Assembly (NCBI GenBank): GCA_002684895.1
Contig: NYVZ01000030.1
Location: forward strand, 1-41,810
Origin: Pelagibacteraceae bacterium
Lineage (GTDB): Bacteria; Pseudomonadota; Alphaproteobacteria; Pelagibacterales; Pelagibacteraceae
Length of the DNA: 41,810 bases
Direction of reading: 5' to 3'
The translations under genes were made by a program, and so were the position numbers. Below, in pieces: positions 40,698 through 41,810 of this stretch. Under the pieces are notes generated by a model that worked only from the letters and a program-made list of their open reading frames with translations, did no database searches and was not told where the DNA came from. Position 1 is the first letter of the stretch. Each line of letters opens with the position of its first letter.

Positions 40698-41444
40698 ATG
40701 CCAAAAAAGAAAAAAGTAAATCCTAAAAAAAACATTAAAAAAAATAAGTCAGCCAAGAAATCTGCTAAGAAAATTCTCAAAAAAAAAGTAGTAAAAAAAA
40801 ATTTAAAAGTAAAAACGAACAATCTTAAAAAGAATGTTTTAGAAAAAAAAGCTCCTCAGCCTTTAACTATAAAATCCGGTCAACAAAACGACATTATTGA
40901 AATAAAAAAAATTAAAAAGCAAGAAAGTGAAAAAAGAATTTACAAAGTAAAAGATTATGTAATTTATCCTAAGCATGGAATTGGCCAAATCATTTCAATC
41001 GATAAGCTCAATATTGCCAACATTGATGTAAGTGTATATAAAATAGAAATCACAAAGGATCGTCTAAATCTTACTATCCCCACAAATCAGCAGCAACATT
41101 TGAGACCTCTGTCTAGTTCAAACCAGGTCAACAAAGCTCTAACCATATTAAAAGGTAAGGCCAAAATTAAAAGAACAATGTGGAGTAGACGTGCAGCTGA
41201 ATACGAACAAAAAATTAATTCTGGAGATATATATCAGATTGCCGAAGTCGTCAGAGATCTAAACAAAAACACTGATATGCCTATTGATCAGTCTTACAGT
41301 GAGCGTCAATTATTTGAAAAGGCATATGATCGACTCCTTGGTGAAGTGTCTATTGTTATGAAAATATCTGAAGAAGAAGGTAAAATAAAATTGAATAAAT
41401 CTTTAGGTAAAAAGATAGAAGAAAACACTAATAATCAAACATAA
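40698..41444 (+). CDS. CarD/CdnL family transcriptional regulator with Lys-rich N-terminal extension
   Basis: VKDYVIYPKHGIGQIISID, WSRRAAEYEQKINSGDIYQIAEVVRDL, SYSERQLFEKAYDRLLGEVSIV. Confidence 0.93.
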   Translation: MPKKKKVNPKKNIKKNKSAKKSAKKILKKKVVKKNLKVKTNNLKKNVLEKKAPQPLTIKSGQQNDIIEIKKIKKQESEKRIYKVKDYVIYPKHGIGQIISIDKLNIANIDVSVYKIEITKDRLNLTIPTNQQQHLRPLSSSNQVNKALTILKGKAKIKRTMWSRRAAEYEQKINSGDIYQIAEVVRDLNKNTDMPIDQSYSERQLFEKAYDRLLGEVSIVMKISEEEGKIKLNKSLGKKIEENTNNQT

Positions 41445-41483
41445 AAAAAAACGCCCTTCCAAATTAGAAGAGCGTTTTTTTCT
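41445..41483. terminator. Shared hairpin terminator between convergent carD and the polybasic ORF
   Basis: aaaaaaaacgcccttccaaattagaagagcgttttttt: AAAAACGC/GCGTTTTT and TTC/GAA pairing. Confidence 0.8.
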
Positions 41484-41507
41484 AAAAAGTAAAAATTAAC
41501 TAAATTA

Positions 41508-41633
41508 CTATCTTCTTTTCTTTCTTTTTTTAGCTTTCTTTTTACCTTTTTTAGCTTTCTTAGCTTTCTTAGCTTTCTTAGCTTTTTTCTTAGTTTTCTT
41601 TTTAGCTTTTTTTGCTTTTCTTCTTGTAGCCAT
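41508..41633 (-). CDS. 41-aa polybasic histone H1-like protein (not in ORF track)
   Basis: MATRRKAKKAKKKTKKKAKKAKKAKKAKKGKKKAKKRKKRR; SD gggag upstream, promoter-like TTGACA, terminator downstream. Confidence 0.7.
   Translation of the reverse strand: MATRRKAKKAKKKTKKKAKKAKKAKKAKKGKKKAKKRKKRR
41546..41585 (-). repeat. In-frame 9-bp tandem repeat (GCT AAG AAA) inside the polybasic ORF
   Basis: About 4 consecutive copies of ttagctttc on the + strand. Confidence 0.8.
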
Positions 41634-41657
41634 CTTTAGCTCCCTTTTTAAGTTAAA

Positions 41658-41674
41658 CGAATCAAAGTGATTCG
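41658..41674. promoter_or_regulatory. Palindrome upstream of the polybasic ORF
   Basis: cgaatca-aag-tgattcg, between a TTGACA-like -35 region and the SD. Confidence 0.55.
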
Positions 41675-41810
41675 CTATTAACATATTTTTATTTTTTTAT
41701 ACAACTGATGTCAAATCTTTAATTTTCTAATTTTTTTTAAATTTTTTTTGAAAATCTTTTTTTTATTTATATTTTTTAATAAGTAAAAAAAGTTAACGTT
41801 TATGCCATTA

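Follow-up and report, generated by a model that had tools for sequence, protein, structure and literature searches.

Does a short, strongly basic open reading frame beside carD in a SAR11 genome encode a real protein, and what would that protein do? The window analysed here (41,810 nt) covers contig C29 completely; the genome it comes from measures 1.07 Mb. The CarD relatives place it in the HIMB114 genus of Pelagibacterales, which we take to be subclade IIIa of SAR11. The micro-ORF lies on the minus strand at 41508..41633, with its ATG at 41633 and its stop codon at 41510-41508, and encodes the 41-aa peptide MATRRKAKKAKKKTKKKAKKAKKAKKAKKGKKKAKKRKKRR. The peptide contains 24 K, 5 R, 8 A, 2 T, and 1 G, has no D or E, and has a pI of about 12 (K+R 29/41). 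The 9-bp tandem repeat (GCT AAG AAA)n, which codes for (AKK)n, covers 41538..41585 of the same strand (TRF: period 9, 5.4 copies, 92% matches). The original prediction described a 41-aa Lys/Ala/Arg ORF without acidic residues on a 9-bp in-frame repeat, and both the ORF translation and TRF agree with it. Its comparison with the C-terminal tail of histone H1 also holds for the composition. The peptide fits the basic, Lys/Ala/Pro-rich and acid-poor make-up that is expected of an H1-like protein, and its disorder is predicted from that composition.

An in-frame ATG at 41684, which would give a peptide of 58 aa, was considered and rejected. The start was assigned to 41633 because the Shine-Dalgarno (SD) position and the start codon are conserved among relatives. 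When 1 Mb of sequence was simulated with a first-order Markov model of the window composition, no ORF of at least 20 aa with K+R of at least 50% arose by chance, and a second ORF of this kind was not found elsewhere in the window. The micro-ORF ranks among the most K/R-rich ORFs across the whole HIMB114 genome. Another tiny basic ORF was observed in HIMB114 (C1:264534-264617, minus strand). It encodes MGYPKKHRGRRKIGSKRRRNRRKNKKK (27 aa, 59% K+R), is convergent with a tRNA-thiouridylase-like gene, and has no match in PDB.

The neighbour of the micro-ORF is the convergent gene carD of the CarD/CdnL family (40698..41444, plus strand). Orthologues of the micro-ORF were detected by synteny with carD, and direct searches with the peptide were blunted by composition filters. 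The BLAST and HMM searches matched 2 of 61 genomes and none of 289 in the class, the latter count being uninformative. A convergent K/R-rich micro-ORF of 21-99 aa is present at 61 of the 62 distinct Pelagibacterales carD loci that have at least 210 bp of downstream sequence. It is absent from all 16 loci taken from other Alphaproteobacteria, one of which ends just after carD. The sole exception among the 62 (L034; genome G013, contig C5) also has this ORF, but an additional A in a homopolymer shifts its C-terminal frame, which is either a sequencing error or a real pseudogene.

The comparisons of sister pairs gave pN/pS of 0.27 and 0.16, with most changes at third positions. By these ratios, the frame is under purifying selection despite large changes in length. 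The peptides form two families. Family 1 peptides begin with MA[KT][KR][KR] (or MPK, VAK), have 21-50 aa, and most finish with Arg-rich runs. Family 2 peptides begin with ME[ED]LK[IV][IL]FA, which holds two acidic residues, and continue with H1/AlgP-like (K)AAPKK repeats to 40-99 aa. In several genera the peptide is as short as 21-25 aa and finishes in an Arg-rich stretch (MAKRRKKKKGKKKAKKRRRRR). Besides the ends, no position of the peptide is fixed across loci. The length differs among species and strains, always by whole codons in intact copies. The in-frame variation in repeat number that is expected of H1-like proteins is thus seen between loci, with the frame kept at 61 of 62. Judged from sequence comparison, the micro-ORF is a real, unannotated single-copy gene across the order Pelagibacterales (SAR11). 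Homologues next to carD had been anticipated by the original prediction, which was to fall if the frame was not conserved in relatives; they were seen, and the frame is conserved throughout the order. Its proposal that the repeat changes length without frameshift stands in part. The in-frame variation across loci agrees with it, but slippage within one lineage could not be upheld since the 41-aa allele is probably chimeric.

The same region was assembled twice in this genome. Contig C3 is 99% identical to the window through carD, with many ambiguous bases there, and its peptide has only 31 aa (MAKRRKKAKKA..RKKRR). The upstream flank of C3 runs on to an acyl-CoA synthetase-like gene. The identity of the window to C3 is 98% over 41440-41585. 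The contig end at 41586..41810 has affinity to another SAR11 genus (g4) at 83-86% identity and is matched weakly by its own genus. The genomes of the g4 genus encode a 29-aa peptide, MATK[KR]KAKKAKKKTKKKAKKAKKAK[KR]RKR, whose beginning is nearly the same as that of the window peptide. Residues 1 to about 16 of the window peptide and all sequence upstream come from a SAR11 genus other than that of the rest of the contig. The junction (41585/41586) coincides with the border of the low-complexity repeat and leaves 225 bp to the end of the contig. This makes the 41-aa allele a probable chimera of the 31-aa and 29-aa forms, produced by assembly or by recombination; the likelier of the two is an assembly that joined both forms through the repeat. 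A genuine recombinant that took its 5' half from a Pelagibacter-like genus would suit the in-frame join, which yields a full gene, and SAR11 recombines readily. However, the foreign sequence reaches the contig end, the join coincides with the repeat edge, and C3 holds the normal 31-aa form with a continuing native flank. We consider such a recombinant unlikely, and this estimate is separate from those given to the functional readings below. The contigs C29 and C3 also show redundancy and chimerism in the assembly. The chimerism touches this particular sequence and leaves the family unaffected.

The micro-ORF is preceded by a conserved leader. The SD sequence GGGAG (41640..41644, minus strand, as are all leader elements) is conserved in relatives. 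The -35 element TTGACA (41709..41714) is conserved as TTGACA/T. The probable -10 element TAAAAA (41686..41691), assigned from its 17-nt spacer, is weakly conserved between lineages. Given this spacer, transcription is inferred to start a few bases 5' of a leader hairpin, AGCGAATCA-CTT-TGATTCGTT (41656..41676). A bidirectional intrinsic terminator (41442..41484) is common to the micro-ORF and the convergent carD, and its hairpin is conserved between both stops in relatives. An SD, promoter-like sequence, and terminator had all been proposed for this locus. The sigma70 scan of the window alone remained at the shuffle level (7 found and 7.2 expected), but the conservation of TTGACA in relatives upholds the promoter. 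The order of the cassette is also conserved: TTGACA, about 35 nt, CGAATCA that opens the hairpin, SD, micro-ORF, and the common terminator.

In almost every readable leader, GAATCA follows TTGACA/T at 33-36 nt, and CGAATCA is invariant among these. Of 397 genomes of the order, 340 contain the pattern TTGACW-N31..37-CGAATCA, most of them a single time, and about 60 contain the reversed control pattern (counted by hand from the listing). The right arm of the hairpin varies between TGATTCG and TGATTTG (G-U), and the inner stems of subclade III are ATCACATAA/TTATGTGAT, ATCACTTAA/TTAAGTGAT, and TCACTTAGAA/TTCTAAGTGA. The pairing was tallied by script; the MAFFT alignment misplaced the right arms. 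The right arm changes along with its pairing to the left arm, through compensatory and G-U changes, so the pairing is preserved as would suit an RNA. The left arm CGAATCA is conserved as a sequence in its own right, also in leaders where its first bases do not pair. A general operator regulon built on GAATCA..TGATTC was rejected; the only other copy in the genome lies inside a coding gene. The Rfam search of the locus gave no match above the gathering score, and sub-threshold matches were treated as chance. None of the motifs in the main text of a paper on SAR11 structured RNAs is near carD. In family 2 leaders (e.g., L043 and L045), CTAACCTCTAACTAAACCC..GGGGGGAG stands upstream of the ATG and its CCTC can pair with AUGGAGG of the SD/start region, and in subclade IIIa leaders CTCC stands opposite GGAG. 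Pairing of the leader with the SD/start region could possibly exert translational control of the micro-ORF.

The leader hairpin of the window holds two GANTC sites (41659-41663 and 41669-41673). GANTC is the CcrM site. CcrM is encoded in the genome (PDB 6pbd match, 1e-135), and so is GcrA, which was found in 57 of 61 relatives. Two of the features expected of a GcrA/CcrM promoter are present: both proteins are encoded in the genome, and GANTC follows TTGACA at 33-36 nt in almost every leader. GANTC is depleted in HIMB114 (1745 observed vs 3219 expected). The leader site lies at about +6, downstream of the inferred transcription start. This position counts against such control, since cell-cycle activation in Caulobacter relies for the most part on sites that lie between -35 and -10 (PMC4287350), although GcrA sites downstream of promoters are also able to activate (PMC7987155). 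Methylation control of the micro-ORF promoter is plausible on these grounds. A GANTC just past the predicted start, together with CcrM and GcrA, suggests expression tuned by methylation or replication.

A similar leader was found at HU. In family 2, 38 listed genomes (hand count) have a further copy of the promoter and CGAATCA pattern (TTGACTATA...CGAATCA) at a second locus. The next gene is HU at all 11 second loci inspected, as identified by Pfam (PF00216, 3e-31) with coordinates that agree with HU matches elsewhere. These 11 leaders (L192, L195, L197-L199, L206, L207, L209, L215, L217, and L218) have CGANTC at a micro-ORF-like distance from a TTGAC box, and HU is the only other recurrent target of the pattern in family 2. 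The subclade III HU leaders, which belong to family 1 genomes (L220-L229 and L247-L249; 13 of 30 HU leaders), carry ACGATTC or ACGAATC 17-20 nt before the ATG, at a similar distance from a TTGATT box (about 33 nt in the two sequences counted). CGANTC occurs within 45 nt upstream of only 8 of 1030 long ORFs in HIMB114. The middle base of the motif varies in HU leaders, and GANTC as the CcrM site therefore fits better than a fixed word. GANTC is missing at HU in most Pelagibacteraceae outside subclade III (17 of the 30 HU leaders are without it), so co-regulation with HU depends on the lineage. HU (Bac_DNA_binding) and the micro-ORF peptide are unrelated in sequence and fold; what they have in common is the promoter-spaced CGANTC leader, in two lineages, and the presumed status of an abundant nucleoid protein.

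We favour, with reasonable though not high confidence, a free-standing and intrinsically disordered polycation that resembles the H1 C-terminal tail, is possibly expressed with HU, and has a role in the nucleoid. The peptide would be made from a short and strongly promoted mRNA. It would bind DNA by neutralising its charge, with no preference for sequence, and would help HU to compact or organise the nucleoid. The property conserved would be charge density, with the ends kept, the middle free to change codon-wise, and no room for a fold; repeat number could change in codon steps because such binding depends on charge density and not on a fold. The leader GANTC with CcrM and GcrA would tune expression by DNA methylation or replication. 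The four HU/IHF genes that already exist are a point against this reading, and DNA binding and RNA binding are indistinguishable by composition alone. The peptide might instead bind RNA or the ribosome as an always-on polycation that aids rRNA packing or subunit contact, like eL41 and bTHX. These proteins are similar in size and basicity to the shortest micro-ORF forms, the 21-25 aa peptides with an Arg-rich end, and the strong SD and promoter, the single copy, and the near-universal presence in the order would also suit such a role. However, eL41 and bTHX are fixed in sequence and length, whereas the micro-ORF varies by repeats from 21 to 99 aa with only its ends fixed, a pattern that does not suit a ribosomal protein occupying a defined site. 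The PDB search against small ribosomal proteins gave only a chance-level match (E 0.52), in a search that is weak for low-complexity 21-mers. In the loci inspected, the leader is common with HU and not with ribosomal genes, which favours DNA over ribosomes and supports the nucleoid role indirectly. We regard the ribosomal alternative as a minority possibility, on the doubtful side.

The adjacency to carD throughout the order raises a further alternative, in which the peptide acts in trans as a disordered basic domain for CarD at promoters. In Myxococcus xanthus, the C-terminal tail of H1 can stand in for the HMGA domain of CarD (PMC8156234), and CarD activity is highest with a basic disordered domain (PMC4374960). 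The micro-ORF peptide is likewise basic, predicted to be disordered, and linked to a protein of the CarD family, but the M. xanthus domain is fused and the SAR11 peptide is the product of a separate convergent gene with its own promoter. SAR11 CarD also has its own K-rich tail, which sits N-terminally, unlike the M. xanthus arrangement. This tail is H1-like and covers residues 1-88 in the window (40698-40961, plus strand). The Pelagibacterales CarD proteins examined have K-rich N-terminal extensions of 48-151 aa (median K+R 0.40, by script from the first Met), and those of other Alphaproteobacteria have mostly short and weakly basic N termini, apart from three Micavibrio-type proteins with long K/A-rich ones. 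Adjacency is common in streamlined genomes, and we consider a CarD accessory improbable. Still less credible is a small RNA of 5' hairpin and terminator with an incidental ORF. The hairpin is kept through compensatory and G-U changes and the terminator is strong, but the amino acid sequence is under purifying selection, the start, SD, and stop are conserved, and intact copies change length by whole codons. The hairpin also differs among lineages, the coding length varies nearly fivefold, and Rfam gave no match above its gathering score.

The nucleoid polycation has known counterparts. Chlamydia Hc1/Hc2, Bordetella BpH1, and the C-terminal domain of Pseudomonas AlgP are likewise Lys/Ala(/Pro)-rich, disordered, and polycationic, and length variation by repeat number between strains has been reported for Hc2 (PMC2848022) and AlgP (PMC9239181). 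Kept charge density, conserved ends, and a variable middle are the behaviour of such H1-type tails. The micro-ORF differs from this set by its size of 21-99 aa, its lack of a folded N-terminal domain and of a profile match, its vertical conservation at one locus through a marine order, and its own promoter-GANTC-hairpin leader. The search of the peptide against Pfam, NCBIfam, and PDB gave no matching family, including no named H1-like family, and nothing on the micro-ORF was found in the literature on SAR11 nucleoid and small proteins, in a search that left most subscription journals outside. The micro-ORF would thus represent a type of H1-like nucleoid protein that is absent from Pfam, NCBIfam, and the literature searched.

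SAR11, with its streamlined genomes, belongs to the most abundant cell groups of the ocean. The micro-ORF, kept in nearly every member, likely matters for their small and crowded nucleoid, and the leader that it has in common with HU suggests a small regulon of nucleoid proteins that is readable from sequence. Pelagibacter has been reported to lack ctrA (PMC2877005). We tentatively suggest, as a wider proposal that is more doubtful than the nucleoid role itself, an H1-like chromatin peptide throughout SAR11 with a CcrM/GcrA methylation site at its promoter, a mark that HU has in some lineages too and that would couple the synthesis of DNA-packing proteins to the passage of the replication fork without CtrA. 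A methylation-coupled chromatin programme of this kind becomes testable in cultured strains such as HIMB114 and, if true, would be a bacterial counterpart of replication-coupled histone expression.
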